NCBI RefSeq assembly: GCF_005871085.1
Contig: NZ_VAUP01000014.1
Coordinates: forward strand, 1 to 39,428
DNA from: Xanthobacter autotrophicus
GTDB taxonomy: Bacteria > Pseudomonadota > Alphaproteobacteria > Rhizobiales > Xanthobacteraceae
Direction of reading: 5' to 3'
DNA: 39,428 nt
Of the stretch, positions 20,667 through 39,428 are shown piece after piece (the stretch's first letter is position 1; the number at the start of each line of letters is the position of its first letter). The notes beneath the pieces are model-generated. The model searched no databases. It saw only the letters and a program-made list of their open reading frames with translations, and was not told the origin of the DNA. The position numbers were made by a program, and so were the translations under genes.

Positions 20667-20669
20667 GGA

Positions 20670-23395: not shown

Positions 23396-23624
23396 GAACC
23401 CCAAAGGCCTCCGGCCGAAGGATAAGCGGCAGGGTGGAGGGGTGATCGGGCGGATTATTCGACAGGCCTGATCGAACCGGCGACGGGAAGCGACCATGCG
23501 TGACGCGTATCCTGCGGATGCTCCGAAGCTGCTTCGGCCGCTTGTTCCAACGGCATGACGCGCGTGCGGTTCAATCAGCGATGTGGCGGAAGAAGTCCGT
23601 GCACATCGTTGGTGAAGAAGCCCT

Positions 23625-24401
<777 letters not shown>

Positions 24402-26708
24402 TCATCCGATGGCGGAGCGAACGGCGTCGGGCGTGATGGGAATGTGCCGCAGCCGCGCCCCGATGGCGTTGAAGATGGCATTGCCGATGGCCGGCCCCAC
24501 CACCGTCGTGGCCGGCTCTCCCAGCCCGACCGGGACCTCGATGCTGTCGACGAAGCTGATGTCCATCTGCGGAACGTCGCTGATGCGCAACGGCATGTAG
24601 CTGTTGAGATTGGTATCCTTCACTTGGCCGCGCTCGAAAACGGTCCCCTCGTGCAGGGCCAGGCTGAGGCCCCACAAAGCGGCGCCCTCGACCTGGGCCC
24701 GCGCGCCGTCGGGATCGACCACCGTGCCGGCATCGGCGACGAGGGTCAGCTTCTCCGCTCGCACCACGCCGCTGGCCCGGTCGACGCGGACCCGCGCCAC
24801 GCAGGCGATCCAGGTCGGCATGTCCCGTTCCTGCCCGAAGCTGGTGGCCAGCCCGAGGGCGGTACCGGCCGGGAGCGGAACGCCCCAGCCGGCCCGCGCG
24901 GCCGCCCGGCGGACGACCTCAGCCTGCCGCAGCGCGCCGCCAACCGCGTTCGGCGCCGAGCCGGCGTTGCGACCCTTTGCGTCGAGCAGCTTCAGCCGGA
25001 AAGCGACGGGGTCCTCCTTGGCATGGTGGGCGGCCTCGTCCATGAAGCTTTCCAGCGCCCAGTTGGTCCAGCCCGGCCCCACCGAACGCAGCCAACCGGG
25101 TCGGAAGGCCGTGTTCGCCAGATCGTTCGAGATGGCGCGCACCTTCTGCGCTCCGACACTGTACCAATGGTCGGCACCGGAGATGGAGAACGGATCGTAG
25201 AGAACGCCGTTCGCGCCCTTCGGCATCAAGGATGGCGTCATGACCTGCGACGGCCACCCGGCGGCCGCGTCGTGCTCCATCGCTGTCACCTCGCCGCCCG
25301 CGCCGAACGCCATGCGCAGCCGCTGCACCGAGGGCGAGCGGGGGGAATCGAAGCGGGCATCGTCCTCCCGCGTCAGCACCATCTTCACCGGCTTGCCGAG
25401 CGCCTTGGCCGCCAGCGCGGCCGGCACTGCGTAATCGCCGTTCAGCCGGCGGCCGAAACCGCCGCCGATCAGGTAGGTGCGCAGGACGATGCCAGTTTCA
25501 GGCCGCCCGAGCGCCTTGGCCAGCGTCGGCAGGATCAGGCTCTGCCACTGGTTGCCGGTGTGGATCTCGAACACGCCGTCCTTCTCGAAGGCGAGCGCGT
25601 TGACGGGCTCGAGCTGGAAATGCAGCACGGTCGCGGTGGTGTAGGTCTGCTCCAGCGTCGACTGCGCCGCCTTGAACGCCGCCGCCGTATCACCGCCCCC
25701 GGTGTCGAGCACGGCGCCGGCGTCCGGCTGGGCGATCAACTGGGCGGCGTGATCCTGGATATCCTTCTCGGACACGGCGGAAGTCGGCCCAGGAGTCCAG
25801 TCCACCCGGACGAGATCGGCGGCGCGGATGGCGGCGGGATAGCTTTGCGCAATCACCATCACCCAGCCCGGCACGGTGCCCGAGGGATCATCGAGCACGA
25901 GACTGCCGACATAGCCCTTCACCGCTTTGGCCGCGCTGTCGTCGACCCCATTGACCTTGGCGCCGTTCCGCGTCGGGGGGATCTTCGGCCGGGCGTAGAC
26001 CATGCCAGGGACCTTGGCGTCGATGCCATAGCGTGCCGTGCCGTCGGTCTTCGGCGGGATGTCGAGGGCCTGAACCGGCCGGCCGACCAGCCGCCGCTCG
26101 GAGGCGGGCTTGATGGGCAGCGCCTCGATTTCCTCTGCCGAGAACCGACGGTCGAGCGCGCCGCGCCGGGCGATCTCGCCAAACGCGATGGACGCGCCGC
26201 CCGCAAACACGGTGCCATTCTCGACCCGGCATGCCGACGGGTCGACACCCAGGAGCTTCGCGCCCTGCTCGATCAGCGCAACGCGTCCGGCTGCCCCGGC
26301 CCGGCTGAACAGGGGAAAGCTCTGCCACACCGACCAGCTGCCGCCCGTGACCATCAGACCCCATTTCGGATCAGTGTCCACATGGAGGATGCGCACCTTG
26401 CCCCAGTCGGCGCCAAGCTCGTCGGCGAGGATGCGGGCGAGCGCGGTGCCCACATGCTGGCCCATCTCGGCGCGGATGATATTGACCGTCACCCAGCCCT
26501 CGCCGTCGATAACGAACCACAGCGTCGGCTCGAACAGGGGCTCGGTCTCGGCCGGTGGCATGCCGCCCGGCACGGCGGGATCCATCGCCGCCGCGGCACC
26601 GCGGGGAAAGCCGAAGGCGAGGCTCGCACCGACACCCGCGCCGACGCTGGCGACCAGGAAGCCGCGCCGGGTCAATACGGGGGCGCCGGGATTCATCCGT
26701 CTAGCCAT
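24402..26708 (-). CDS. Tat-exported molybdopterin dehydrogenase subunit, IorB type (second system)
   Basis: A 768-residue paralogue of the Mo subunit at 20.7-22.9 kb. It carries a Tat-like signal ([20 protein letters not shown]..., ending in AAAA near residue 40), [19 protein letters not shown], the [12 protein letters not shown] molybdopterin motif, and the catalytic Glu in [19 protein letters not shown]. The start at 26708 (MARRMNPG) has GAGG upstream and overlaps the Fe-S gene by 8 nt. Divergence from the first copy is large and spread evenly, so this is an old duplication or separate acquisition rather than a recent one. Periplasmic aldehyde or heterocycle oxidation is expected; the substrate is unknown. 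Confidence 0.92.
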
Positions 26709-27159
26709 GGTTCGCCTCGGCTGCCTTCCTGATCGCTGCGCGAATGCGCACATACGTCATGCAGCGGCAGAGATTGCCGGTCATGACGGTGTCGATCTCC
26801 TCGTCCGAGGGATGGGGGAAGTCCTTGAGCAGGGCCACCGCCTGCATGATCTGGCCGGACTGGCAGTAGCCGCACTGGGGCACCTGCAAGTCCTTCCAGG
26901 CCGTCTGAACCGGGTGGGCGCCATGGGGGTCCAGCCCCTCTATGGTCGTAACCTCCGCCCCCTCCACCGAGCCAGCCGCCGTGATGCAGGAGCGCGTCGC
27001 CCGGCCGCCCACATGGACGGTGCAGGCGCCGCACATGCCGATGCCGCAGCCGAACTTGGTGCCGGTCAGCCCGATCTCGTCACGGATGACCCAGAGGAGC
27101 GGCGTGTCGTCGTCGACATCCACCATCGTGGCGCGACCGTTGAGGGTGAAACGGATCAT
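26701..27159 (-). CDS. [2Fe-2S] subunit, IorA type (second system)
   Basis: A 152-residue small subunit with cluster ligands C38, C43, C46, C58 and C96, C99, C131, C133. The segments [19 protein letters not shown] and [15 protein letters not shown] are nearly identical in layout to the paralogue at 22.9-23.3 kb. The ATG at 27159 has GGAG 9 nt upstream. It sits 30 nt after the cytochrome c gene and overlaps the Mo gene, so cytochrome, Fe-S and Mo subunits form one operon in the order cytochrome first, opposite to the other system. Confidence 0.93.
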
Positions 27160-27189
27160 GGCTGCGCGGCTCCAGATATCCTCATGGCC

Positions 27190-28491
27190 TTACTCCTGTC
27201 CGCGACCCTGAGCACGGACGGCGGCAACGGTCTTTTCGAGATCCGGCCACGCCGGATGGGACGTGCGGCTGGCGCGCAGATAGGCGGCGATGCGGGCGAT
27301 GTCGGCGTCGCTCAGGGCCGGCGCGAAGCCCGGCATCACGATCCCAGGGGCACCTTCGCGCGCAGTCACGCCGTACAGCATCACCCGGATCAGATTGGTG
27401 GGGTCCGCTAGGGAAACGGCACTGTTCAGGGCCAGATCGGGCCGCAGTGCGTTGACCTGCCCACCGCCGTTGAAGTGGCAGGAGGCGCAGGCCGCCGCAT
27501 AGAGGCGTGCTATCGGATCGTAGGGAAGCCCGGGGCCGTGCGCATTCACCGCCAGCGCCCGCTCGATCGCCGGCTGCGCCTCGGCGGCCCGCGCCGCCGC
27601 CTGTCCGACATCGGCGAAATAGACGCCGAGCGCGGCGATGTCGGCATCGGGAAGGCGGGCGAGGCCATCGTGTACGACGGGCGACATCGGACCGGCCGCA
27701 ACGCCGTGAAACCGGCTGACGCCACGGCGGAGATAGGCGGCGAGTTCATCCTGGCTCCACGGCACCGGCGAAGGGTTCGCCTTCGTCAGGGGCGGCGCCA
27801 CCCAATGGTCGATCGGCGCGCCCGCGAAGGCGTTCCCACGTTCCTCCGCACCAAGCGCATTGCGAGGCGTATGGCAGGCGCCGCAATGGCTGATGCCCTC
27901 GGCGAGATAGGCACCACGGTTCCACGCCGCGCCGCGCTCGGGCTGCTCCACATAGCGTCCCGGCCGGAAGAACAGCAGCTTCCAGCCCGCCTGCAGGGGG
28001 CGCAGATTGAGCGGGAATGGCAGGCCGTTCTCATGGGGCGCCGCCCGCACGGGGGTGCGCGTCATCATATAGGCATAGAGCGCGGCGACGTCGGCGTCGG
28101 TCAGCCTGGTGAAATGATCGTACGGGAAAGCCGGGAAGAGATGGGAGCCGTCGCGCGCCACGCCCTCGTGCATCGCCCTGCGGAAGGCGTCTTCCGACCA
28201 TGCGCCGATGCCGGTTTGCGGATCCGGGGTGATGTTGGTGGAATAGATGGTGCCGAAGCCGGTCTGCATCGCATAACCACCGGCATAGGGCGCGCCGCCC
28301 GGCGCGGTGTGGCAGGTCGCGCAATAGCCGGCACCGGCCAGCACCTCGCCGCGGGCGATGAGGTCCGGAGCGAAACTTGAGGCCGCAGGCGGCGTGATGG
28401 GCGCGATCGCCGGGCGCCAGGCCAGAGCTGCAAACCCCGCGCCCCCGATCACCAGGAGTGACATCAAGCCGATGAGCGTTCGCTTGAGCAA
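27190..28491 (-). CDS. Membrane-anchored triheme cytochrome c (second system)
   Basis: A cytochrome of about 433 residues with an N-terminal hydrophobic anchor and three haem sites (CATCH, CGACH, CASCH), paralogous to the cytochrome at 19.3-20.7 kb. There is no ATG near the signal sequence. I chose TTG at 28491, which gives MLKRTLIGLMSLLVIGG and has GGGGAG 7 nt upstream; GTG at 28500 and TTG at 28497 are alternatives too close to that ribosome site. A TTG at 28587 would add 32 non-signal-like residues. It would accept electrons from the Fe-S/Mo pair encoded directly downstream. The 190 nt between its start and the GntR gene hold its promoter; I see no convincing -35/-10 pair. Confidence 0.88.
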   Translation of the reverse strand: MLKRTLIGLMSLLVIGGAGFAALAWRPAIAPITPPAASSFAPDLIARGEVLAGAGYCATCHTAPGGAPYAGGYAMQTGFGTIYSTNITPDPQTGIGAWSEDAFRRAMHEGVARDGSHLFPAFPYDHFTRLTDADVAALYAYMMTRTPVRAAPHENGLPFPLNLRPLQAGWKLLFFRPGRYVEQPERGAAWNRGAYLAEGISHCGACHTPRNALGAEERGNAFAGAPIDHWVAPPLTKANPSPVPWSQDELAAYLRRGVSRFHGVAAGPMSPVVHDGLARLPDADIAALGVYFADVGQAAARAAEAQPAIERALAVNAHGPGLPYDPIARLYAAACASCHFNGGGQVNALRPDLALNSAVSLADPTNLIRVMLYGVTAREGAPGIVMPGFAPALSDADIARIAAYLRASRTSHPAWPDLEKTVAAVRAQGRGQE

Positions 28492-28679
28492 TTGCAACAC
28501 TCCCCTGCTGGCCTGCCGTCCGCGATCGAGAACCCCTGAGGCCGGCACCTGAACCAGCTTGGCAGGGCGCCGGTGTATGGAGCACAAGGCGAGAAGCCTG
28601 TGACAAAGACCTATTTTATCGTAGGAACCGGGTTTATCTTCAGCCGCTCCAGAAATGTTTTTTCCGTCCTGTGCATCGG

Positions 28680-29354
28680 TCAGGCAAGCGCAGCGCCTAC
28701 CTCACGTCTGCTCTTCAGCAGCGCTTCGATGAAGATCGGCTCCCAAGTCAGAATGTGGCTTGTCATGAGAGCCTTAATCCCTTCTACGTCACCTGACTCA
28801 GCGAGGCTCACAAGGCGGTAGTGCTCCGCGACAGAAGACACCTGACGCTCCATGCCGCTGCGGGAGGAGATGCCGTGCAGCCGCATCTTGTCCCGCAGGC
28901 CCATGGCCATCTCTGTCAGCAGGGAATTCTCGGCAGCGCTGATGAATGCGAGATGAAAATTGCGGTCACTCTCCAGATATCCGTAGAGGTCATCCTCTTC
29001 TACAGCTGCCCTGACGGCATCGGCGAGGCCGGTGAGGTACTCAAGGGTCTTCTTTTTTTTGCGCGACTTCAGCGCGAACAGCTCGGCCGCGCGCACCTCC
29101 AGCAGATTTCGCATCTCGAACAGGTTGCGCAGATCGTCCACGGTCGGCTCGACCACCTTGAAGCCGCGGTTGCGCATGGGTTCGATGAGGCCGGTGCGCG
29201 CCAGCTCCAGCAGCGCCTCGCGCACCGGGGTGGTGGACACGCCAAGGTCGGCGGCAAGGGTCGGCACTGAGTACATTTTCCCCGGCCCGCTCTGGCCGGA
29301 GATGATCTCGGACCTCACATGCCGCAACACCTGCTCGCGCAAATTCTGATCCAT
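28680..29354 (-). CDS. GntR-family regulator, FadR (FCD) subfamily
   Basis: A 224-residue regulator. The winged helix-turn-helix is at about residues 8-70 (REQVLRHVRSEIISG..., YSVPTLAADLGVSTTPVREAL, LIEPMRNRGFKVVEP). The all-helical FCD ligand-binding domain covers 80-210, including the metal-binding-like D..FH segment (ESDRNFHLAFISAAENSLL) and a distal SVAEHYRL. Such proteins usually repress a neighbouring catabolic operon and respond to a carboxylate. The start at 29354 puts the DNA-binding domain at the N-terminus; the ribosome site is weak. It is divergent from the rubredoxin-led cluster, with TAGCGCGTCA repeats in between. Confidence 0.94.
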   Translation of the reverse strand: MDQNLREQVLRHVRSEIISGQSGPGKMYSVPTLAADLGVSTTPVREALLELARTGLIEPMRNRGFKVVEPTVDDLRNLFEMRNLLEVRAAELFALKSRKKKKTLEYLTGLADAVRAAVEEDDLYGYLESDRNFHLAFISAAENSLLTEMAMGLRDKMRLHGISSRSGMERQVSSVAEHYRLVSLAESGDVEGIKALMTSHILTWEPIFIEALLKSRREVGAALA

Positions 29355-29409: not shown

Positions 29410-29419
29410 TAGCGCGTCA
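29410..29419 (+). promoter_or_regulatory. TAGCGCGTCA half-site near the GntR gene
   Basis: An exact copy of the 10-bp arm of the inverted repeat at 29528-29566. It lies 56 nt upstream of the GntR start, a position suited to autoregulation. Exact repetition of a 10-mer three times in about 160 nt is unlikely to be chance. Confidence 0.55.
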
Positions 29420-29527: not shown

Positions 29528-29566
29528 GTAGCGCGTCAATATAAAACGTGACGTGTGACGCGCTAC
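29528..29566. promoter_or_regulatory. Perfect 11-bp inverted repeat, candidate GntR operator
   Basis: GTAGCGCGTCA (29528-29538) and TGACGCGCTAC (29556-29566) are perfect inverted copies separated by 17 nt. The site ends 19 nt before the rubredoxin ATG and so overlaps or abuts its promoter; TACTAT at 29564-29569 could be the -10. A GntR dimer bound here would block the cluster. The spacer also contains GTGACGTGTGACG, a short internal direct repeat. Confidence 0.65.
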
Positions 29567-29585: not shown

Positions 29586-29801
29586 ATGGAAACGCCCCTG
29601 ACGCGGTGGCTCTGCCTTGGATGCGGCTTCTCGTATGACGAGGCCCTCGGCCTTCCGGAGCACGGCTTGCCGCCTGGCACCCGCTGGACCGACGTGCCCG
29701 ACGACTGGGTCTGTCCCGATTGCGGCACCCCCAAGAGCCAGTTCGAGATGGTGGAAATGGGATATGCCGATGGCGGCGCCGATCTGGCGCGCATCGCCTG
29801 A
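29586..29801 (+). CDS. Rubredoxin
   Basis: A 71-residue rubredoxin with the four iron ligands C10, C13 (CLGCG) and C43, C46 (CPDCG), and the typical [18 protein letters not shown] segment. It carries single electrons in the cytoplasm. It is about 15 residues longer than a minimal rubredoxin, with an acidic C-terminal tail. GGGAGG lies 5 nt before the ATG. It is first in the plus-strand cluster and 28 nt before the pirin-like gene. Its partner is not obvious: the fused flavin reductase-ferredoxin enzyme in the same cluster carries its own ferredoxin, so rubredoxin may serve another oxidoreductase or act in redox protection. Confidence 0.95.
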
Positions 29802-29829
29802 GCCTGCCGCAACCCAAAGGAGATAGACC

Positions 29830-30639
29830 ATGACCAAGTCTTTTGTGCTCCGGTCGGGCGAGCGCGGCCACGATGTCATCTATTCCGACGGCTCGGCTTC
29901 GTCCTATGTGGCCGGCCATCCCGGCAGCTTCATCGCCCGTGAGTCCAGCTTCAATTTTCATCAATACCAGGGCGGACGCCCCGGCTTCGGCACAATCCGC
30001 GTATTCGGCGATGAAGTGTTCAATGGTGCCGGGTGTGGTTACAATATGCATCCGCATCATAACTTTATAATCTGCGCGTTTGTTCTGGAAGGCGAACTGA
30101 CCCACATCAACACCGCCGGACGCGGGATGGTCGACCAGCTGCGTCAAGGTGATTACTACGTGTTCTCTGCCGGCTCCGGCGGGAAGCACTGCGAGCTTTC
30201 CATCAGTCCTGAGAACATGAACGCGATCTATCTGTGGCTCATGCCCGGCCAGCTCTATCTGCCGCCGAGCTACCATCGCGCCCATTTCGACATCCGCACG
30301 CGGCGCAACCGCATCGTCCAACTGGTGGGCGACGCCGACGGCGCGCTGCCCGTGGCGCAGGATCTGCGTGTCTCGCGCCTGGTAACCGACCGGGCGGGCC
30401 GCTTCACCTACACCCCGCGCACCCCCGAGCATGGCGTCTATGTGTTCGTCGTGGATGGCGGCGCCACCGTGAACGAGGTGGCGCTGGCGCGTCGCGACAG
30501 CATGGGCATCACCGGCGCGGGGGCTCTCGCGCTCGATGTTCCCGACAGCTCCGACGTTTTCTTCGTCGAGACCGCCATGCTGGACGACGCCCGCATCCGC
30601 GCCTGGGAAAAGGCGCATGGCGCCGACCTCATCGACTGA
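29830..30639 (+). CDS. Pirin-like bicupin
   Basis: A 269-residue double-cupin protein. The N-terminal cupin has the pirin metal set H74-x-H76 (NMHPHHNF) and H120-x-E122 (GGKHCELS), with GYNMHPHH..ICAFVLEGELTH and SAGSGGKH matching pirin signatures. The C-terminal cupin lacks metal residues, as in pirins. Pirins include quercetin 2,3-dioxygenases and redox-sensing iron proteins. AAAGGAGATAG precedes the ATG. The conserved metal site makes an enzymatic or iron-sensing role possible; the substrate is unknown. It lies between rubredoxin and the tautomerase in one apparent operon. Confidence 0.85.
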   Translation: MTKSFVLRSGERGHDVIYSDGSASSYVAGHPGSFIARESSFNFHQYQGGRPGFGTIRVFGDEVFNGAGCGYNMHPHHNFIICAFVLEGELTHINTAGRGMVDQLRQGDYYVFSAGSGGKHCELSISPENMNAIYLWLMPGQLYLPPSYHRAHFDIRTRRNRIVQLVGDADGALPVAQDLRVSRLVTDRAGRFTYTPRTPEHGVYVFVVDGGATVNEVALARRDSMGITGAGALALDVPDSSDVFFVETAMLDDARIRAWEKAHGADLID

Positions 30640-30676
30640 AGCCGCGCCCGGCGATCCGTCCGCAAGGGAGATGACA

Positions 30677-31258
30677 ATGCCGATCATGGATGTGCGCTAT
30701 GCCGCCGGGACGCTCGATGCGGCGGCGAAAGCCGATCTCGCCGCGCGCCTCACCGACGTGCTCATAAGAATGGAAGGCGGCGCCAACACGCCCGGCGGGC
30801 GCGCCTTCGCCTGGGTGTTCTTCACGGCCTTCGCCACCGACGACTGGTGGATCGGCGGCCACACCGACGGGACCTATGTGACCGGGCCGGGCAAGTTCCT
30901 GGTCAATATCTTCATCCCCGAAGGTTATATGAACGTCACGCACAAGAATGAGGTTCATGCCTGGGTCGCGGAAGCGATCGGGGGGGCGACCGGCTGTGCC
31001 GATCCCGCCGGCAGCCTGCTGACCGTCCTCAACGAGGTGACCGAGGGCAATTGGGGCGACGGGGGCCAACCCATCAGCCTGGAATCCATCGCCAAGACGG
31101 TGGGCCAGGATGGCGGCCCTCGACCGGCCTGGTCGCGCGCCTATTTCGAGGCCAAGGCGCGGGCCATGGTGGCGGCGGGCTACCCCTCAGACACCGGCGG
31201 CATGCTGCCGTCGCTGCGGCCGCAATTGCAAAAGGCGGCGCCCGCAGAACCAGCCTGA
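30677..31258 (+). CDS. Tautomerase-superfamily protein, double length
   Basis: A 193-residue protein. The start at 30677 is favoured over ATG 30671 because AAGGGAG is 6 nt upstream of the former and touches the latter. It also makes Pro the first residue after Met (MPIMDVRY), the catalytic base of 4-oxalocrotonate tautomerase-type enzymes. Two beta-alpha-beta-like halves are visible (residues 1-60, and 78-120 with KFLVNIFIPEGYMNVTHKNEVHAWVAEAIGG), followed by a C-terminal helical extension. Usual members are 60-150 residues. It may isomerise or hydrolyse an unsaturated acid or amide from the transported compound; that is inference. Confidence 0.7.
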   Translation: MPIMDVRYAAGTLDAAAKADLAARLTDVLIRMEGGANTPGGRAFAWVFFTAFATDDWWIGGHTDGTYVTGPGKFLVNIFIPEGYMNVTHKNEVHAWVAEAIGGATGCADPAGSLLTVLNEVTEGNWGDGGQPISLESIAKTVGQDGGPRPAWSRAYFEAKARAMVAAGYPSDTGGMLPSLRPQLQKAAPAEPA

Positions 31259-31358
31259 CGAGCGGCGCCCGCAACGGCGCCCCTTGCTGCGACCGGCCGA
31301 AGGGCGGAGACACGCACGCGGCCTCCTGCCACAATCCAGAGAAAATCAGGGGAACTTC

Positions 31359-32420
31359 GTGACCGACCAAAGCATCTTCGGCCATGTAATGGATCGCAGG
31401 CGCCTCATTGCCAGCGCTGCCGTCCTCGGCGCAGCCGCCCTCGTTCCCGGCATCGCCCGCGCGCAGAGCGGCGAGCTCGTCGTCTCCAACTGGGGCGGCG
31501 ACTGGAACGAGCGCATCGCCAAGGGGTTCGAGGAGCCGGCCTTCGCCGCCTCGGCCATGCGCATCATCCACGACCTCGCCCCGGTGCCGGAGCGCAAGGC
31601 GAAGCTGCTGGCGGAACGGCGCCTGCCGCGCTCCAGCGTCGACGTGACCTGGCTGAGCGACGCCGACGCCTACGAGATGAGCGCCCAGGGCGTGCTCGAA
31701 ACCCTCGACATGTCCCGCATTCCGAGCGCCAGCCACATCATCGAGAAGCTGCGGCGGCCCTATTTCATCCCCGCGGCCTATGGTGGCGTGGTCCTGCTCT
31801 ACAATCCGGCCAGGATTCCGCAGCCGCCGACAAGCTTCGCCGACCTGTGGAATCCCAAATATGCCGGCCGCGTCGGCATCATCGATCAGCTCTACTTCAA
31901 CTATATCTACGCGGCCGCGCTCTCCCACGGCGGCTCCATGGGCGACGTGAGCAAGGCCTTTCCCGCTCTGCTCGAGATGAAGAAGCAGGTTCAGCCCCGG
32001 CTCTATCCCTCCCACCAGGCACTGGCCGCGGCCTTCAAGGCCGAGGAGATCTGGATCTCGGCAAACTACAGCGCCCGCGCCATCCAGTGGGAGAAAGAAG
32101 GTCTGCCCCTGCGCTGGTCCTATCCCAAGGAAGGTGCCGTCGCGATCTCGTTCGGCGCGGGCATCCCCAAGCGCGCGCGCAACCTGGACAGCGCCTACGC
32201 CTATCTGGAAGCGATGCTCCAGCCCAAGGCCATGGGCGCCATCTCCCTCGCCACCTCCTATGCCGTCGCCACCGACAATGCCGACGTCCCCGTGGAGGAT
32301 CGCAAGCGCCTCGAATTCACCGCCGACCAGATCGCAAAGCTCAATTTCGTCGACTACCCTTATGCGGCGAAGAGCGACGCCCAGTGGATCGAATGGTGGA
32401 ACAAGGAATTCAAGGCGTGA
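31359..32420 (+). CDS. ABC importer periplasmic binding protein, polyamine/opine type
   Basis: A 353-residue PotD/AotJ-like substrate-binding protein. I chose GTG 31359, which has AGGGGA 5 nt upstream; ATG 31389 begins directly at the export signal MDRRRLIASAAVLGAAALVP (arginine-rich, possibly Tat) with cleavage after ARA. The mature protein shows LVVSNWGGDWNERIAKGFEEP, typical of this class. A 100-nt gap after the tautomerase contains a GGCGCC-loop-GGCGCC hairpin. It delivers the ligand to the two permeases that follow; the ligand is likely a small nitrogenous or carboxylated compound. Confidence 0.9.
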   Translation: MTDQSIFGHVMDRRRLIASAAVLGAAALVPGIARAQSGELVVSNWGGDWNERIAKGFEEPAFAASAMRIIHDLAPVPERKAKLLAERRLPRSSVDVTWLSDADAYEMSAQGVLETLDMSRIPSASHIIEKLRRPYFIPAAYGGVVLLYNPARIPQPPTSFADLWNPKYAGRVGIIDQLYFNYIYAAALSHGGSMGDVSKAFPALLEMKKQVQPRLYPSHQALAAAFKAEEIWISANYSARAIQWEKEGLPLRWSYPKEGAVAISFGAGIPKRARNLDSAYAYLEAMLQPKAMGAISLATSYAVATDNADVPVEDRKRLEFTADQIAKLNFVDYPYAAKSDAQWIEWWNKEFKA

Positions 32421-33340
32421 GCGCGCTGGCCATCACTGGAGAGGGCAGCCTGACCGGCGGACGGCCTGCGCCGGGCGGCACCGATCGGCGGCGCAGGAGC
32501 TCCACCGCCGGCTGGCTGCTTTTTCCCAGCCTGACGCTGGTGCTGGCAGGCCTGATCCTGCCGCTTGCCCTCATGGCCCGTACCAGCGTCGCCCATTTCG
32601 ATGCCGCGTCGCCGGACCTCGTGGGCTTCACGCTGGAAAACTATGCCCGCTTCTTCGGCGAGCCATTCTATCTGACGATCCTCGCCCGCACGCTGTTGGT
32701 CGCGCTGAGTTGCACGGCCATCTGCCTGGTCCTCGGCGTCCCCGCAGCGTTCGTCATAAGCCGGGTCGAGAGCCGCACGCTGAAGACAGCGCTCATCCTC
32801 GCCACCATCATTCCGCTCTTGATGGGCAACGCGGTGCGCGCGGCGGGCTGGATGGTGCTGCTCGCCGACAAGGGGCTGATCAATTCCGCCTTGCTTTCGG
32901 CAGGCCTCATCACCGAGCCGGTGCGCATCCTCTACACCGGATCGGCGGTGGTGATCGGCCTCATCGCCGTGCTGCTGCCCTTCATGATCATCTCCCTTCA
33001 AAGCGTCTTCGAGGGCATCGGCGATGCCTATGAGGAAGCGGCCCAAACCATGGGCGCGCCGCCGTGGACGGCATTCTTCCGCGTCACCCTGCCGCTGGCG
33101 ATGCCGGGCATCTTCTCCGGCTGCCTGCTGTGTTTTGTTCTGGCCATGAACGCCTATGCGACGCCGGTTCTCATCGGCGGCCCGTCGTTCCAGATGATGG
33201 CGCCAAAGGTCTTCGAGCAGGCGATCAAGGTGTACAACTGGCCGTTCGCCGCCACCATAGCTCTGGTGCTGATGGCCGTGACGCTGGCGCTGAGCGTCGC
33301 CTCCAGCCTCGCGCTGCAGAAGCGCTACGGAGCGCTGTGA
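32417..33340 (+). CDS. ABC importer permease 1 (PotB-like)
   Basis: A 307-residue inner-membrane permease with about six transmembrane helices and the EAA loop contacting the ATPase (EEAAQTMGAPPWTAFFRVTLPLAMPGIFSG). The start is GTG 32417, overlapping the TGA of the binding-protein gene (GTGA), so translation is coupled. The cytoplasmic N-terminal tail of about 30 residues is rich in Gly, Pro and Arg (RPAPGGTDRRRRSS). Confidence 0.92.
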   Translation: MSALAITGEGSLTGGRPAPGGTDRRRRSSTAGWLLFPSLTLVLAGLILPLALMARTSVAHFDAASPDLVGFTLENYARFFGEPFYLTILARTLLVALSCTAICLVLGVPAAFVISRVESRTLKTALILATIIPLLMGNAVRAAGWMVLLADKGLINSALLSAGLITEPVRILYTGSAVVIGLIAVLLPFMIISLQSVFEGIGDAYEEAAQTMGAPPWTAFFRVTLPLAMPGIFSGCLLCFVLAMNAYATPVLIGGPSFQMMAPKVFEQAIKVYNWPFAATIALVLMAVTLALSVASSLALQKRYGAL

Positions 33341-33342
33341 GC

Positions 33343-34182
33343 ATGGCCGTCTCCCGCACCTCCTCCGTCCGCGCCACGACGGCCGGCTCGTTCCGCCCCG
33401 TCATGATCGGCGGCTGCATCTTGGCTTTCGTCATGGTGCTCGCGCCGCTGGCCGCCATCGTCTGGGTCAGCTTCTTCGAGAACAAGATCATCAGCTTCCC
33501 GCCCACCGGATACACCCTCGACTGGTACCGGGCGGCGGCCGCCATGCCGCAGTTCCGCGACGGCTTCGTCACCAGCCTCAAGCTCGGCGTCGTCGCGACG
33601 CTGGTGAGCATGTTCGTGGGCGTGCCCGCTGCGTTGGTGCTCGCCCGCGGGCGCTTTTCGGGACGGGAGGCCATCCAGTCGCTGCTGCTGGCGCCGCTCA
33701 TCGTGCCCGGTATCGTCGCCGGGGCGGCGCTCTACATGTTCCTGATCGAAGTGGAGCTGGCGAGCGGCGTGCAGGTGGCCATGACCTTCTGGGGCCTTGC
33801 CATCGCCCACAGCCTGATCGCTCTGCCCTGGACGGTGCGGCTGATCACGGCCTCCCTGATCGGGCTGGACCCGCAGCTGAAGGAAGCCGCGCTCACCATG
33901 GGCGCGCGGCCGTTCACGGCGTTCCGGCTGGTGACATGGCCGCTCATCCGGCCGGGCGTGGTGGCGGGCGCGCTATTTGCTTTCATCGCGTCCTTCGTGG
34001 ACCTGGAGAAGTCGCTGTTCCTGGTGGGCCCCGGCGTGACGACGCTGCCCATCGTGATCGTCAATTATCTGGAGTGGAGCATCGACCCGACCATCGCGGC
34101 GGTCGCCACGGTCCAGATCGCCATCATCTCGGCCGGCCTTGTCGTGACCGACCGCTACTTCAAGCTCGCGCGCGCATTCTGA
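33343..34182 (+). CDS. ABC importer permease 2 (PotC-like)
   Basis: A 279-residue permease with six predicted helices and an EAA loop (KEAALTMGARPFTAFRLVTWPLIRPGVVAG). GTG 33337 overlaps the preceding stop (GTGA) as in permease 1 and is an equally possible start; I took ATG 33343, 10 nt after GGAG. It pairs with permease 1 to form the channel. Confidence 0.92.
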   Translation: MAVSRTSSVRATTAGSFRPVMIGGCILAFVMVLAPLAAIVWVSFFENKIISFPPTGYTLDWYRAAAAMPQFRDGFVTSLKLGVVATLVSMFVGVPAALVLARGRFSGREAIQSLLLAPLIVPGIVAGAALYMFLIEVELASGVQVAMTFWGLAIAHSLIALPWTVRLITASLIGLDPQLKEAALTMGARPFTAFRLVTWPLIRPGVVAGALFAFIASFVDLEKSLFLVGPGVTTLPIVIVNYLEWSIDPTIAAVATVQIAIISAGLVVTDRYFKLARAF

Positions 34183-34191
34183 GGAACGAAG

Positions 34192-35250
34192 ATGTCGAGC
34201 ATCCTCATCAAAGACCTCGTGAAGCGCCACGGCGCGCAGGTGACCGTGGACCATGTCTCCCTCGAAATCGGCCAGGGCGAGTTCATCGCCTTCCTCGGCC
34301 CCTCCGGCTGCGGCAAGACGACGACCCTGCGCATGATCGCTGGCCTCACCGAGGCGAGCGCCGGCTCGATCCATTTCGACGGGCGCGACGTGACCCGCCT
34401 GCCGCCCTATTTGCGCAACGTCGGCCTCGTGTTCCAGGGCTATGCCCTGTTCCCGCATATAAGCGTGGCAGAGAACGTCGCCTTCGGGTTGCAAATGCGC
34501 AACGTCGGCCGCGAGGAGGCGCGACGCAGGGTGGATGAGGCGCTGTCCCTCGTGAAGCTCGCCCATCTCGCCGGGCGCCTGCCTAAGGAGCTGTCCGGCG
34601 GCCAGCAGCAGCGCGTCGCTCTGGCGCGAGCCATCGTCTACAAGCCGGAGGTTTTGCTGCTCGACGAGCCGCTCTCCGCCCTCGACGCCAAGCTGCGCAC
34701 AGAGGTGCGCAGCGAGCTGAGGCGGCTCCAGTCGGCGCTCGGGCTCACCACCATCTTCGTCACCCATGACCAAGACGAGGCGTTGAGCGTCGCCGACCGC
34801 ATCGTGGTGATGTCAGCGGGACGGGTGGAGCAGGTGGGCACGCCACGCGAGATCTACCAGCGGCCGGCGACGCGCTTCGTCGCGGAGTTCATCGGCCTCA
34901 CCAACCTGTTCCCCGGTGGACTGGACGGCCATGGCCGATTCCGCTGCGAGGATGGGGAGTGCTTCGCGGTCACCACCACGGACGCGCCGTCGAATGCATC
35001 GGTGCTTGCGATCCGTCCCGAGCAGGTCCGCCTGGTGCGCGGGGTTCCCGCGCCGGATGGCGAAAGCGCGGTGGAGGCGACCGTAGAGGACGTGGTCTAT
35101 CGCGGCGCCCTTACCGAGTTCGTCGTGCGCACCGCCTCGGGCGTCAAGCTCGCCGCGCATCTGCAGAATGCCGACTTCGGCCGCGACGAACTGCGGCCGG
35201 GAGACCGGGTGGTCGCCTCCTGGCCGGCGGATGCGTCCATGCTGTTTTGA
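34192..35250 (+). CDS. ABC importer ATP-binding protein (PotA-like)
   Basis: A 352-residue ATPase. Walker A GPSGCGKTT (36-44), Q-loop Q82, signature LSGGQ (134-138), Walker B LLLDEP (155-160) and the switch His in FVTHDQDE are all present. A C-terminal TOBE domain (about 240-352) is of the polyamine/iron importer type. GAGGAACGAAG precedes the ATG, 9 nt after permease 2. With the three preceding genes it makes a complete importer. The 105 nt after it hold nothing recognisable before the fused molybdenum enzyme. Confidence 0.95.
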   Translation: MSSILIKDLVKRHGAQVTVDHVSLEIGQGEFIAFLGPSGCGKTTTLRMIAGLTEASAGSIHFDGRDVTRLPPYLRNVGLVFQGYALFPHISVAENVAFGLQMRNVGREEARRRVDEALSLVKLAHLAGRLPKELSGGQQQRVALARAIVYKPEVLLLDEPLSALDAKLRTEVRSELRRLQSALGLTTIFVTHDQDEALSVADRIVVMSAGRVEQVGTPREIYQRPATRFVAEFIGLTNLFPGGLDGHGRFRCEDGECFAVTTTDAPSNASVLAIRPEQVRLVRGVPAPDGESAVEATVEDVVYRGALTEFVVRTASGVKLAAHLQNADFGRDELRPGDRVVASWPADASMLF

Positions 35251-35355
35251 GCTTTGAACCCGCGCCGCCCCAGGCGCCCGAATCCCTCGATCGATGTAAC
35301 GGCCGTTCCGACGGCCGCAGAACCCGCGCACCCTGCGACGCGCGAAAGATGGACC

Positions 35356-38300
35356 ATGGCTGAACGACACCAAGGCTACTGCACCCTCTGCCGCTCGCGC
35401 TGCGGCTCCATCACGCTGGTGGAGAACGGGCGGATGGTCGGTGTCGAGCCGCGCCCGGGCCATCCCACCGGCGGGGCGCTGTGCGCCAAGGGCCGCGCCG
35501 CGCCGGAGCTGGTGCACAGCCCCAACCGCCTCACCACGCCGCTGCGCCGCATCGGGCCGAAGGGCGAGGGCGCGCGCTGGCAGGAGATCGGCTGGCAGAA
35601 AATCAGTTGGGACGAGGCGTTGGACGAGATCGCAGGCCGCCTCGGCGCCATCAAAGGCGAATCCGGCGCGGAGGCGGTGGCGTTCGCCGCGACCACCTTC
35701 AGCGGGTCGCCCATCGTCGACAGCTACGAGTGGGTCGAGCGCTTCGTGCGCTGCTTCGGCAGCCCGAACCTCATCTATGCCATCGAGATCTGCGGCTGGC
35801 ACAAGGACTATGCCCACGCGCTCACGTTCGGGCGTGGGCTCGGCGTGCCGGACTACGACCATGCCGATCTGATCGTCCTGTGGGGGCACAATCCGGCGCG
35901 GACCTGGCTGGCCCAGGCGAGCCGGGTGGCAGAGGCCCGCCGGCGTGGCGCGAAGGTGGTGGTGATCGATCCCAAGCCGGATGGATCGGGTCAGCAGGCG
36001 GACCTGTGGCTGCGGATGCGGCCGGGTGCGGACGCTGCCCTCGCCATGGGTGCCGTCCATCATCTGATCGCGAGCGGACGCTTCGCCGACGACTTCGTGC
36101 GGCGCTGGACCAATGCGCCATTGCTGGTGGATATCCGCACCGGCCGCCCGATGCGCGCCGACGCGGTGGGCCTGGGCAGCGCGGAGTGCTTCCTCGTGCT
36201 CGACGCCGATGGATGTCCAGGGCCCTATGACACGACCCGCGTGCTGGAGCATGCCGAAGGAGTCCGGCTGGACGGGCAGGCGCACCTCACCGGAACGGAT
36301 GGCCGCGCGATCGAGGCGGAGACTGTCTTCCGCCGCCTCGCCGAGCGCGCCCGGCAATATCCGCTGTCCCGCGTCTGCGCGTTGACGGGGCTCGGCCCGG
36401 CGGAGGTCGAGGCCTTCTACGCGCTGCTGGAAGGCGCCCCGCGCGCCGCCTATTACACTTGGACCGGCGTCGGCCAGCACACCAACGCCACCCAGACCGA
36501 GCGCGCCATTGCCACCCTGTTCGCTCTCGTCGGCTCCTTCGACCGGCAGGGCGGCAACATCTGGACCGTCTCGCCGCCGGCCAATGCCGTAAACGACCTG
36601 TCCCTGCTGCCGCCCGGACAGAAAGAGAAGGCGCTCGGCCTTGCCGAGCTTCCGCTGGGCCCGCCTGCTCATGGCTGGATCACCGCACGCGACTTCGCAC
36701 GCGCTGCCATCGACGGCGCGCCCTACAAGGTGCGCGCGCTGATGAGCTTCGGCACCAATTTCGCGGTCTCGCAGGCCGACACGGCCCGCAACCTCGCGGC
36801 GCTGCATGCCCTCGAGTTCCATGTCCACGCCGACATGTTCATGAACCCCACCGCCGCCTGCGCGGACATCGTGCTGCCGGTGAACATGCCCTGGGAGCGC
36901 GACGCCTTGCGCATCGGCTTCGAGATCACCCAGGCGGCGGTGGAGACGATCCAGTTCCGCCGGAAAGTACTGGAGCCCCTCGGAGAAGGCAGGGCGGACC
37001 ATGAGATCGTGATGGCTTTGGCGACGCGCTTGGGGATGGCAGCCGAGTTCTTCGGCGGCGACATCGAGGCTGGCTGGAACTACCAGTTGGCGCCCCTCGG
37101 CCTCACCGTTGAAAAACTGCGCAATACGCCGGACGGGGTGCGCGTGCCGCAGCCTTTCGCCCATGCGAAGTTCGCTGCACAGGAGGCTGATGGCACCGTG
37201 CGCGGTTTCGACACCCCGACCCGCCGGGTGGAGCTCTATAGCGCGCGCCTGCTGGAGCATGGCCACGACCCGCTGCCCGATTTCGTGCCGCCCTCTGCCG
37301 ACGAGGAAAAGGCGCTGCCGCTCATCCTCACCACCGCCAAGAGCGGCTGGTTCGTCCACACCTCCCATCGCCATGTGGCTTCCCTGCGCCGCAAGGCGCC
37401 GGATCCCGCGGTCGAGATCAGCCCGGACCTCGCCGCCGTCCGCGGCCTTGCGGCCGGGGACTGGGCCGAGGTGCGCACGCGGGATGGGGCAGCGCGCCTG
37501 CGGGTGCACATTAACCCGGCGCTGGATGCGGCGACCGTCGTCGCCGAGTTCGGCTGGTGGGAGGCCTGCACGCCGCTCGGCCGCATCGCCACCGGAACCC
37601 ATGGGCCGGACACCGCAAACATCAACGCCGCCCTCAGCGATGCCGCCCGCGATCCGGTCAGCGGGTCGGTGCCGCTCAGGGCCGTGCGCTGCGAGATCAT
37701 GCCGCTGCCCGAGGCCAATCGCGGCCGATGGCAGGGTGAGCGCCGCTTCATCGTCTCCGACGCGCATGCGGCGGATGCGCAGACCCGCGCCCTGACGCTG
37801 GTGCCAGAGGACGGCGGCGCGCTGCCGGACGTCCTGCCCGGTCAGCATGTGGTGGTACGCCTGCAGCAGGGCGGTCCGGCGCGGGCCTATTCCTTGACCG
37901 GGCCGCCCGCCGCGCCCCGGACCTTCTCCATCGCCGTGCGGCGCAATCCGGCTTGTGCGGATGGCGAGGAGGCCGGCTTTCTCTCTCACCGCATCCAGGA
38001 GCTTGAGGCCGGCGACACTTTGCTGCTGGAACCGCCCGCTGGCGTGTTCACCCCCCCGGTGGATGGCACCCGCCCGCTCCTCCTGATCGCGAACGGCATC
38101 GGCATCACCCCGTTCGTGTCCTATCTGGAGGCGCTGGCGGCGCAGCAGGCGGCACGCGCAGGCGAGGTGCTCCTCCTTCACGGCTGCCGCGGCCGTGCCG
38201 ATCATCCCCTCGCCGACCGCGCGGACGTCCTTGCGCCACGCATTCCCGGCTTGCGGCGGATCACCGCCTATTCCCGCCCCGATGGGGAGGATCGGGCCGC

Positions 38301-38766
38301 CGGCCGCTTCGACGTGCACGGCCGCCTCGACATCGACGCTCTACGCGCCGCCGGCGCACTCCCGGACGCCCCCGACGACCGTCCGCTCGCCTATATCTGC
38401 GGCTCGCGGGCCTTTATCGCCGACATGCGGGAAGGACTGGTGCGATGGGGTATGCCGCGCTTCGACATCTTCACGGAGGCCTTCTATGTCCCCGCCGAGG
38501 TGCCGCCTGAGCTGGAGCCGCGCAGGATCACGGTGGCCGGTTCGGGTCAGTCCTTCGCGTGGACGCCCGGTGGCGGCTCCATCCTCGACGCAGCGCTTGC
38601 GGCGGGGATCGCCCTGCGCAGCGGATGCCGGGTGGGGCAGTGCGAAAGCTGCGCCGTCGCGGTGGTCGAAGGCCGTTTCGCCCATCTCGTGCCGGTGGAG
38701 GGGGAGCCAGGCACCTGTCTCGCCTGCCAGGCGGTGCCGCTCACCGATCTGACGATCGCGCCATGA
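35356..38766 (+). CDS. Fusion: bis-MGD molybdenum oxidoreductase + flavin reductase + [2Fe-2S] ferredoxin
   Basis: A 1136-residue three-module enzyme. Residues 1-790 form a DMSO-reductase-family catalytic subunit: [4Fe-4S] ligands C9, C12, C16, C43, candidate Mo-ligating C146 (IEICGWHK), and a C-terminal MopB domain (LILTTAKSGWFVHTSHRH...). About 796-1050 is a ferredoxin-NADP reductase-type module with RAYSLTG at 843-849 and GIGITPF near 914. The end is a plant-type ferredoxin with C1091, C1096, C1099 and C1121 or C1124. The reductase-then-ferredoxin order matches phthalate dioxygenase reductase. No signal peptide, so it is cytoplasmic. NAD(P)H electrons could flow flavin, [2Fe-2S], [4Fe-4S], Mo to reduce the substrate, or the reverse. 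The ATG at 35356 has a weak ribosome site. Confidence 0.92.
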   Translation: MAERHQGYCTLCRSRCGSITLVENGRMVGVEPRPGHPTGGALCAKGRAAPELVHSPNRLTTPLRRIGPKGEGARWQEIGWQKISWDEALDEIAGRLGAIKGESGAEAVAFAATTFSGSPIVDSYEWVERFVRCFGSPNLIYAIEICGWHKDYAHALTFGRGLGVPDYDHADLIVLWGHNPARTWLAQASRVAEARRRGAKVVVIDPKPDGSGQQADLWLRMRPGADAALAMGAVHHLIASGRFADDFVRRWTNAPLLVDIRTGRPMRADAVGLGSAECFLVLDADGCPGPYDTTRVLEHAEGVRLDGQAHLTGTDGRAIEAETVFRRLAERARQYPLSRVCALTGLGPAEVEAFYALLEGAPRAAYYTWTGVGQHTNATQTERAIATLFALVGSFDRQGGNIWTVSPPANAVNDLSLLPPGQKEKALGLAELPLGPPAHGWITARDFARAAIDGAPYKVRALMSFGTNFAVSQADTARNLAALHALEFHVHADMFMNPTAACADIVLPVNMPWERDALRIGFEITQAAVETIQFRRKVLEPLGEGRADHEIVMALATRLGMAAEFFGGDIEAGWNYQLAPLGLTVEKLRNTPDGVRVPQPFAHAKFAAQEADGTVRGFDTPTRRVELYSARLLEHGHDPLPDFVPPSADEEKALPLILTTAKSGWFVHTSHRHVASLRRKAPDPAVEISPDLAAVRGLAAGDWAEVRTRDGAARLRVHINPALDAATVVAEFGWWEACTPLGRIATGTHGPDTANINAALSDAARDPVSGSVPLRAVRCEIMPLPEANRGRWQGERRFIVSDAHAADAQTRALTLVPEDGGALPDVLPGQHVVVRLQQGGPARAYSLTGPPAAPRTFSIAVRRNPACADGEEAGFLSHRIQELEAGDTLLLEPPAGVFTPPVDGTRPLLLIANGIGITPFVSYLEALAAQQAARAGEVLLLHGCRGRADHPLADRADVLAPRIPGLRRITAYSRPDGEDRAAGRFDVHGRLDIDALRAAGALPDAPDDRPLAYICGSRAFIADMREGLVRWGMPRFDIFTEAFYVPAEVPPELEPRRITVAGSGQSFAWTPGGGSILDAALAAGIALRSGCRVGQCESCAVAVVEGRFAHLVPVEGEPGTCLACQAVPLTDLTIAP

Positions 38767-38832
38767 CATGGCCGGCGTCGCGCTACCCCAAAGGAGCGCC
38801 CCCTCAGTCGTACAATCGAAAGGACAATGGCC

Positions 38833-39105
38833 ATGGACGATCAGATCTCATCCCGCCGCGCCCTCCTGCGCCTCGCCACGCTGGCTGCCGGCGGCGCCAT
38901 GGTGGCGGCCTCCGGCCAGGGCGCACAAGCCTATCAGGGCAATATGGAGCGCGCCGTCGGTGAACTGGAGACCGCCCTGCGCTCGCTGCGCGAGGCGACG
39001 CCCGACAAGGGCGGCCACCGGGAGCGGGCGATCGCGCTCATCCAGGAGGCCATGGGCGAGGTCCAGGCCGGCATCGACTATGCCGCCCGAAAGTTCGGCG
39101 ACTGA
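38833..39105 (+). CDS. Small Tat-exported helical protein, unknown function
   Basis: A 90-residue protein. A twin-arginine signal (SRRALLRLATLAAGG, then hydrophobic to GAQA) occupies about residues 7-34. The mature about 56 residues are two amphipathic helices: NMERAVGELETALRSLREA, a KGGHRERA turn, and ALIQEAMGEVQAGIDYAARK. ATG 38833 is 8 nt after AAAGGA; ATG 38827 is too close. Small exported proteins with this A/L-rich, KGGHR-containing pattern are widespread and uncharacterised, as far as I know. It follows the fused Mo enzyme by 66 nt and may be the last gene of the cluster. Confidence 0.8.
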   Translation: MDDQISSRRALLRLATLAAGGAMVAASGQGAQAYQGNMERAVGELETALRSLREATPDKGGHRERAIALIQEAMGEVQAGIDYAARKFGD

Positions 39106-39338
39106 GGGCGGCGGCAAACCGCGCACGGTCAACCAGCGCCCCGCGCGCCGGTATAGAAGCTCAATGATACAAGAGTGACTAAGCAGCTCATGGCAGACAA
39201 TCCATGAGACATTTGTCCTGGTTGAAAGAACAGAGTGAGTCAGGGCCGAGCCATTTCTCGCATCCCGGCCCGGCGAGCATGCGTTGAATACAAGCGGATT
39301 ATCTGCCATCTTCTGGCGACCTTCGAGGCTGTCCGAGC

Positions 39339-39428
39339 GTGAAAGACACGGAGCGCGAACTCGCCGACTGCGTCGGTGCCATCTATCAGGCCGGCGCCGG
39401 GGACGGCAGCTGGTTCGACGTCGGCGAA
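39339..39428 (+). CDS. LuxR-family regulator N-terminus (partial)
   Basis: Thirty codons from GTG 39339 to the window edge, with GAGG about 10 nt upstream. The translation (KDTERELADCVGAIYQAGAG, then DGSWFDVGE) resembles the first helix of LuxR/CsgD-type regulators in which a segment like LLDAIYDAALDPSLW begins an N-terminal sensor domain. The helix-turn-helix lies outside the window, so the call rests on this short stretch. The 230 nt between the Tat protein and this start show no gene. Confidence 0.5.
   Translation, partial: MKDTERELADCVGAIYQAGAGDGSWFDVGE

Follow-up and report, generated by a model that had tools for sequence, protein, structure and literature searches.

The rubredoxin, pirin, and tautomerase gene array of Xanthobacter autotrophicus as a possible block of a larger island for aromatic side-chain catabolism

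The DNA analyzed here (39,428 nucleotides [nt]; the window) is the whole of contig C15 of the 5.0-Mb genome of Xanthobacter autotrophicus and carries nine plus-strand genes encoding a rubredoxin, a pirin-like bicupin, and a Pro-1 tautomerase (together, the triad), an ATP-binding cassette (ABC) importer, a fused molybdenum (Mo) enzyme, and a small protein with a twin-arginine translocation (Tat) signal. All nine genes named in the original prediction are present, as are the divergent GntR gene and a repeat between GntR and rubredoxin (Table 1). The array had been described as close, which holds for most intergenic gaps from rubredoxin to the Tat gene (28, 37, 100 or 130, −4, 2, 9, 105, and 60 nt) but not for the two of about 100 nt before the binding-protein gene and the Mo gene, either of which could contain a separate promoter. 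Refined starts are GTG 31359 or ATG 31389 for the binding protein, GTG 32417 for permease 1, and ATG 33343 for permease 2, while the start of the Mo gene at 35356 was taken from the open reading frame by inspection. Comparison with X. autotrophicus AM5 (L018) gave ratios of nonsynonymous to synonymous substitution (dN/dS) of 0.07–0.23 for eight of the nine genes, which supports their being coding; the Tat gene was uninformative (dN/dS 0.70, with dS only 0.06). Chance assembly of the array is excluded, since order and strand recur in five of 14 genus genomes. Along 29586–39105, dS against L018 was uneven, from 0.65–0.68 in rubredoxin and pirin down to the value given for the Tat gene, as if parts of the block had been exchanged by recombination.

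Table 1. Features of the window, from left to right
Feature	Position	Strand	Basis and remarks
Relict, mdlC, Dld, and CocE pieces fused by deletions	23577..24428	-	Intact genes on C22 and in G700
Large Mo subunit, aldehyde-oxidase/xanthine-dehydrogenase-type enzyme	24402..26753	-	PF02738, PF20256
2Fe-2S subunit, Mo aldehyde-oxidase/xanthine-dehydrogenase type	26701..27159	-	PF01799; G700 94.7%
Multi-domain cytochrome c, left arm	27190..28587	-	PF13442, PF00034; inside same island in G700
GntR/FCD regulator, divergent, start ATG 29354	28680..29354	-	PF00392, PF07729
Additional GntR half site	29410-29419	.	Half-site search
Candidate GntR operator, perfect 11-bp inverted repeat, 17-bp spacer	29528..29566	.	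GTAGCGCGTCA-N17-TGACGCGCTAC
Rubredoxin, 71 amino acids	29586..29801	+	PF00301
Pirin/quercetinase-like bicupin, 269 amino acids	29830..30639	+	PF02678, PF17954; YhhW closest solved structure
Pro-1 tautomerase, probably two tautomerase domains	30677..31258	+	PF01361 on first half
ABC substrate-binding protein, Tat-like signal (by eye)	31359..32420	+	PF13343, PF13416
ABC permease 1	32417..33340	+	PF00528
ABC permease 2	33343..34182	+	PF00528
ABC ATPase with TOBE domain	34192..35250	+	PF00005, PF08402
Fused Mo-bis-MGD-type oxidoreductase, FAD/NAD reductase, and 2Fe-2S ferredoxin	35356..38766	+	Six Pfam domains in order
Small Tat-signal protein, no assigned function	38827..39105	+	No Pfam match; homologues in same gene run at six of eight other triad loci
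LuxR-like regulator, first 30 codons, ends with contig	39339..39428	+	96.7% identical to complete L018 gene

The identities proposed for the three triad proteins were borne out by Pfam, each reaching its cut-off. The rubredoxin scored 69.8 bits, and its two CxxC pairs (C10, C13, C43, and C46) were invariant in eight of eight copies. The bicupin matched PF02678 (38.9 bits; cut-off 26.1) and PF17954 (44.2 bits; cut-off 22.9), and comparison with YhhW (E = 7e-25) placed H74, H76, H120, and E122 at the retained His/His...His/Glu positions, which we take to be the pirin metal site; these residues were invariant in the eight aligned copies, which are 74–92% identical to the window's pirin. The tautomerase scored 25.2 bits against a cut-off of 22, and its Met-Pro start (P2) was invariant at nine of nine loci. 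The small Tat protein exists and is Tat-like, as had been proposed, but it matched no Pfam family. The label "polyamine-type" proved too loose for the importer, the binding protein scoring far below the cut-offs of PotF (35.7 versus 636), PotD (32.0 versus 582), and PhnS2 (33.2 versus 392.75), and polyamine or phosphonate uptake was rejected on these scores.

The best solved match of the fused Mo enzyme was acetylene hydratase (E = 1.4e-53), with thiosulfate reductase and a formate dehydrogenase-type subunit scoring nearly equally, and alignment with 2e7z pointed to a likely Cys ligand to Mo. In acetylene hydratase the Asp after the second cluster Cys is regarded as essential; the Mo enzyme reads CTLCR, which would put Arg at this place, that stretch of 2e7z lying outside the alignment. 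Acetylene hydratase was tentatively set aside on this apparent Asp-to-Arg difference and the nearly equal scores of the other families, and the NasC assimilatory nitrate reductase was rejected with 125.2 against the NF047855 cut-off of 1100.

To examine the distribution of the array, a tautomerase profile was searched against several samples. Close copies (E < 1e-100) occurred in five of the 14 genus genomes, namely the window's own and those represented by L017, L018, L022, and G700, which include contigs of X. autotrophicus AM5 and AM3 and of X. tagetidis. The whole block was found in all five at about 76–100% identity, with no Tat gene found in the X. tagetidis block; matches in G703 (2.6e-12) and at a further position in G698 (9.5e-5) were not taken as members. 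In the wider samples no close copy other than the window's own was seen. The class sample (240 genomes) gave three matches, the window's own, a 41% relative, and one weak match (3e-4), and the order sample (199 genomes) eleven, its own and ten weak ones (5e-7 to 6e-4), the weak matches of both being left out of membership. A pattern-based genome scan returned six loci (three in Xanthobacter, Methylocapsa palsarum, Acidisphaera sp. S103, and one isolated 38% relative), and plasmid records returned five matches, four in Methylocystis parvus and one in Methylocystis MJC1 (35%); no relative was found in viral contigs. Judged by length, the four M. parvus records represent one pair of plasmids assembled twice; two of the four were read, as was the MJC1 region. 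Two candidates were rejected as triad loci: the 38% relative, from Alpha proteobacterium Mf 1.05b.01 (L021, of which L002 is by position a shorter stretch), has neither triad nor any other island protein in 20 kb, and the MJC1 relative (L016) is by annotation without the triad.

Counting the window, rubredoxin, pirin, and tautomerase genes stood in the same order and strand at nine of nine loci in eight genomes. Their companions were less constant: the GntR gene adjoined at six of the nine loci (copies 71.6–99% identical at five of the eight outside the window), the Tat gene was present at seven, and the ABC and Mo genes were present at five, all in Xanthobacter. By tblastn, no ABC or Mo gene lay in the flanks of the remaining triads, those of two Methylocystis plasmids, Methylocapsa, and Acidisphaera (L014, L015, L019, and L020; in L019 the sequence extends about 1.6 kb beyond the tautomerase). 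Conversely, relatives of the Mo enzyme (43–47% identity) are found on many plasmids, and the triad was absent from all six such regions read (tblastn). A GntR relative occurred in three of these six (27%; 51% in Agrobacterium; 37% in Rhodococcus) and a different ABC importer in two; an ornithine-cyclodeaminase-like gene follows the Mo enzyme relative in three (L024, L025, and L027). The triad is thus a conserved core, separable from the ABC and Mo genes, and GntR, importer, and Mo enzyme form a recurring partnership of their own without it.

These patterns bear on the claim that the nine genes suffice by themselves for import of a small compound, its conversion at Mo, and isomerization. The close array, the common control region, and recurrence in five of 14 genus genomes would agree with it, as would the recurrence elsewhere of regulator, another importer, and Mo enzyme. 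The co-occurrence expected of one pathway, however, was found only in part: the block recurs within the genus, but ABC and Mo genes are missing at four of nine triads and the triad from all six Mo regions, which argues against a single nine-gene pathway. The genomic setting given below argues further in this direction, and we consider a self-sufficient nine-gene system decidedly unlikely. The statement that no described pathway has this set was supported, no paper on the rubredoxin-pirin-tautomerase set or on this gene combination turning up in searches of an open-access library.

In M. parvus, two small NHLP-like proteins are encoded upstream of the triad, and CocE, a Tat protein, glutathione S-transferase (GST), and mdlC downstream. 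The window's genome carries an intact run of mdlC-Dld-NHLP1-NHLP2-CocE-malic enzyme on a second contig, C22; relative to the methanotroph set, Dld is added and GST is absent. The last 127 nt of the window (39302–39428) are the reverse complement of C22 1–127, and both contig ends enter the start of a LuxR-like gene. We infer that the shared 127 nt are an assembly overlap; the sequence occurs only on C15 and C22, no contig continuing the window's end was found, and C22 and C39 do not overlap. The fullest arrangement is seen in G700, where malic enzyme, CocE, NHLP2, NHLP1, Dld, benzoylformate decarboxylase, the Mo aldehyde-oxidase pair, cytochrome c, and GntR are followed by rubredoxin, pirin, tautomerase, ABC importer, fused Mo enzyme, Tat, LuxR-like, UbiX, and UbiD genes. 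The earlier pathway reading therefore described a real and conserved gene set that is only part of the system, the other half lying on C22.

The left arm of the window holds the aldehyde-oxidase pair and cytochrome c of this arrangement, the large Mo subunit having PaoC as its best NCBIfam model (180 bits; cut-off 1180). The relict mdlC beyond them is not an assembly copy of the C22 gene, because it is 89% identical in amino acids over 167 residues. Farther left, a second aldehyde-oxidase-type set (cytochrome c, large, and 2Fe-2S; 19335–23310) is paralogous to 24402–28587 (41, 30, and 60%), and three-subunit xanthine-dehydrogenase-like genes lie at 6859–10674 (by eye, from open reading frames).

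Dld, the thiamine enzyme, NHLP1, NHLP2, CocE, and malic enzyme occur together in seven further Xanthobacter genomes (G695, G697, G698, G700, G702, G703, and G706), with LuxR-like, UbiX, and UbiD genes on the other side in six; the G698 contig stops 241 nt past the Tat gene. UbiX of G706 was matched over only 29 residues, and the LuxR-like protein has a helix-turn-helix by eye and no Pfam match. PadC adjoins UbiD in five of six flanks read (G695, G697, G702, G703, and G706). The nine-gene block is flanked by Dld (or cytochrome c) on one side and by the LuxR-like gene on the other, and the run from the thiamine diphosphate enzyme through NHLP1, NHLP2, and CocE to malic enzyme is kept in three of three genus genomes that have the NHLP pair but no triad (two of them with an intact Dld, G702 with a stub); both observations speak against a nine-gene system complete in itself. 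In G703, a decayed Tat gene and a short piece of the Mo gene remain between Dld and the LuxR-like gene, showing that this genome has lost the block; G695 and G702 had no comparable scar. Two genes of G703, malic enzyme (two frames; L051 6249–7932) and an S-Me-THD-like neighbor (L051 3314–4448), match in two pieces, as if broken, as does the LuxR-like gene of G702 (L050 6203–7364). The split genes, the G703 scar, and the window's relict together suggest repeated decay of the island.

Outside Xanthobacter, the Methylocapsa NHLP pair lies on a separate contig behind an mdlC end, GST, and a Dld remnant (L062 1–2186), and Dld and CocE pieces lie on the triad side (L019 8254–12123). In Acidisphaera, the NHLP2 profile found nothing genome-wide, and no CocE, mdlC, or Dld was found in the 20 kb around the triad.

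An 18-nt element, TCACCASTTCTGNNGATG, was derived by comparing upstream regions. Exact matches occurred in eight of the 14 genus genomes, the same eight that have NHLP2; the sites number 15, with two in each of these genomes except G706, which has one, and the reversed control gave none in 14. This coincidence would have a chance of 1 in 3003 if the genomes were independent, but they are not, and some of these loci had served to define the element. Of 385 genomes sampled from the class, three contained it, the window's own and two with single sites. In Xanthobacter, TCACCASTTCTGNNGATG precedes C22 mdlC and, at seven further loci, Dld or mdlC; in M. parvus (both plasmids) and Methylocapsa it precedes rubredoxin. 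In the eight places measured, the distance to mdlC, Dld, or (in the methanotrophs) rubredoxin is 90–153 nt; the Methylocapsa site is exact, and a single mismatch is present in each of the two M. parvus sites and in the X. tagetidis Dld site. Where the second site of a genome was placed, its coordinates put it about 1 kb ahead of a group of cupin-FMO genes. A common upstream element of the methanotroph triad operon and the Xanthobacter Dld/mdlC operon is the strongest link found.

The repeat assigned to GntR was upheld as a candidate operator, with one match in the window and none in 100 shuffles (three or fewer mismatches). Its right arm and the preceding 11 nt are identical in five of five Xanthobacter islands, and the left arm varies by one change in G700 and two in the other three. 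No half site was found before C22 mdlC at one or fewer mismatches. GntR could have come with the Mo part, because GntR, importer, and Mo enzyme recur without the triad. In Acidisphaera, a 72% identical GntR gene adjoins the triad with no Mo gene in its 20 kb (tblastn), and in Xanthobacter the triad itself seems to be under GntR control.

NHLP1 and NHLP2 are encoded together in ten of ten plasmid records, and NHLP2 is present in seven of eight triad genomes (the exception being Acidisphaera) versus one of 299 in the phylum sample, the window's own. Such pairing, the match of the M. parvus copies to TIGR03793 (E = 3.9e-10 and 3e-5), and a conserved Gly-Gly inside the NHLP2 tail could be taken to mean that the two are precursors of a ribosomally synthesized and post-translationally modified peptide (RiPP), modified by rubredoxin, pirin, and Mo enzyme. 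However, the scores of 39.4 and 23.8 bits lie under the curated cut-off of 50.9. According to PMC2887384, NHLP RiPP precursors have a Gly-Gly closing the homology region and a hypervariable core; against these criteria, none of 14 NHLP1 and 14 NHLP2 sequences has a Gly-Gly at the end of that region, the one in NHLP2 being followed by conserved sequence. Tails and leader parts are conserved to about the same degree (35–84% versus 32–84%; 14 pairwise comparisons), a hypervariable Cys/Ser/Thr-rich core is not present (from these identities, and composition by eye), and the homology between NHLP1 and NHLP2 spans the full length of both proteins (hhalign 97.2%, E = 3e-11). In the regions read, no genes for modification or export of a peptide were recognized. 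Elsewhere, the pair occurs with CocE and mdlC in Streptomyces goshikiensis, and in Neorhizobium it is preceded by a hydrolase gene and one of the nitrilase family (239.5 bits; cut-off 502.6); the NHLP1 of S. anthocyanicus carries a fused RidA-like domain and is encoded next to a flavin monooxygenase (L031 8124–8978). By the criteria of that source, NHLP1 and NHLP2 do not qualify as RiPP precursors, and a peptide system is highly improbable.

Taken together, these observations are consistent with the nine genes being the right-hand block of a larger, regulated Xanthobacter island for aromatic (hydroxycinnamate/mandelate-type) side-chain catabolism, a reading that we prefer tentatively and rate at somewhat less than an even chance. 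It is the most economical one, each step being assigned from protein family, and is suggested because C22 mdlC passes a specific model and PadC, UbiX, and UbiD are present, with Dld, the aldehyde-oxidase pair, and pirin. C22 mdlC scored 823.2 bits with the benzoylformate decarboxylase model NF005485 (cut-off 493) and keeps the equivalents of Ser26, His70, and His281, which we take to be the catalytic residues of that enzyme. PadC matched PF05870 at 272.6 bits (E = 1e-81), UbiX exceeded its cut-off, and the best model for UbiD was BagN/FevL (470 bits; cut-off 1000). UbiX/UbiD and PadC act on phenolic acids in known systems.

Such an island would serve the uptake and degradation of aromatic acids whose side chain is oxygenated. 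UbiX/UbiD and PadC would decarboxylate hydroxycinnamate-type acids; Dld would oxidize an aryl 2-hydroxy acid, giving a 2-oxo acid that the thiamine enzyme would decarboxylate to an aryl aldehyde, and the Mo aldehyde oxidase, with cytochrome c, would convert the aldehyde to the acid. Within the triad, pirin might act as an iron-dependent oxygenase, receiving electrons from rubredoxin, with the tautomerase as keto-enol partner providing or removing the enol form of the substrate; this is the least certain step, and we hold the assignment to be doubtful. The ABC importer and NAD(P)H-linked Mo enzyme would be an addition seen only in Xanthobacter, and control would be divided between one regulator acting through TCACCASTTCTGNNGATG and a second, GntR, through the inverted repeat at 29528.

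Several findings weigh against aromatic side-chain catabolism. By score, Dld is a D-lactate dehydrogenase (925 bits; cut-off 391), so that it may act on lactate. Of the seven other Xanthobacter islands, all except G700 have, where mdlC would stand, a thiamine enzyme that shares only about 30% identity with it, and that of L018 falls under the benzoylformate decarboxylase cut-off (286 versus 493). UbiD passes the general UbiD model only, the fullest island (G700) has no PadC beside UbiD, the aldehyde-oxidase pair and the ABC binding protein reach no specific family cut-off, and malic enzyme and the Tat protein match no proposed step. As to regulation, TCACCASTTCTGNNGATG is absent from the window and the Acidisphaera locus at two or fewer mismatches, and in Xanthobacter it was not found directly before the triad; Acidisphaera has the triad with neither NHLP pair nor TCACCASTTCTGNNGATG. 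GntR may belong to the Mo part, given the 51% relative adjoining an Agrobacterium Mo enzyme without the triad (tblastn).

The GST of M. parvus and Methylocapsa and the malic enzyme of the Xanthobacter islands read would also suit a detoxification or stress island directed at aldehydes and organic peroxides, with rubredoxin and pirin in peroxide and oxygen defense and malic enzyme supplying reducing power. A dedicated importer, a GntR/FCD regulator, and several decarboxylase genes, however, would be more usual for catabolism, and we judge such an island unlikely. A more specific and speculative proposal, which we regard as doubtful, is that the triad is a new type of oxygenase, shared under one operator by Xanthobacter and methanotrophs: a soluble non-heme-iron bicupin would be reduced by its own rubredoxin, the tautomerase would hand over an enol or quinone-methide-like substrate, and NHLP1/NHLP2, rather than being peptide precursors, would form a heterodimer (a novel nitrile-hydratase-derived subunit without the metal site) working with it in aromatic side-chain removal.

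To our knowledge, the bacterial role of the pirin family is poorly known. The conserved bacterial context described here, with an apparent dedicated electron carrier and a tautomerase, makes its enzymology directly testable. NHLP-like proteins are conserved outside a recognizable peptide-biosynthesis setting, and TCACCASTTCTGNNGATG, being highly specific and tying operons across genera, can be used to find further members.

The island can be compared with several known systems. C22 mdlC aligns over its full length (763 bits) with MdlC of the Pseudomonas putida mandelate pathway (PDB 1bfd), but the enzyme adjoining it is of the D-lactate dehydrogenase type. Neither mandelate racemase nor FMN (flavin mononucleotide) mandelate dehydrogenase was noticed among the genes read, no search having been aimed at them. 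The NHLP pair, CocE, and the triad are not known to be part of the mandelate pathway. The UbiX-UbiD-PadC order beside the island in five of six genomes resembles VdcBC and BagMN/FevKL-type systems with PadC, whereas UbiD is below the BagN/FevL cut-off and here the genes flank a triad/NHLP island behind a LuxR-like gene. NHLP1 and NHLP2 share with NHLP RiPP precursors (TIGR03793; PMC2887384) an NHLP-type domain under cut-off, with metal-binding cysteines absent by eye, and differ from them in the domain end, the conserved tails, and their occurrence as paired paralogues. The tautomerase resembles the 4-oxalocrotonate tautomerase (4-OT) family (best structure 8t9q) in its N-terminal proline and in the match of its second half to 4-OT structures, but that match is weak (best E = 0.0016), and the protein is about 193 amino acids long with its last 50 or so residues unmatched. 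The pirin, finally, is like the YhhW quercetin 2,3-dioxygenase (PDB 1tq5, 6uts) in being a bicupin that aligns over profile positions 38–246 with the metal-ligand positions kept; unlike that of YhhW, its gene is immediately preceded by a rubredoxin gene and immediately followed by a tautomerase gene at every triad locus.

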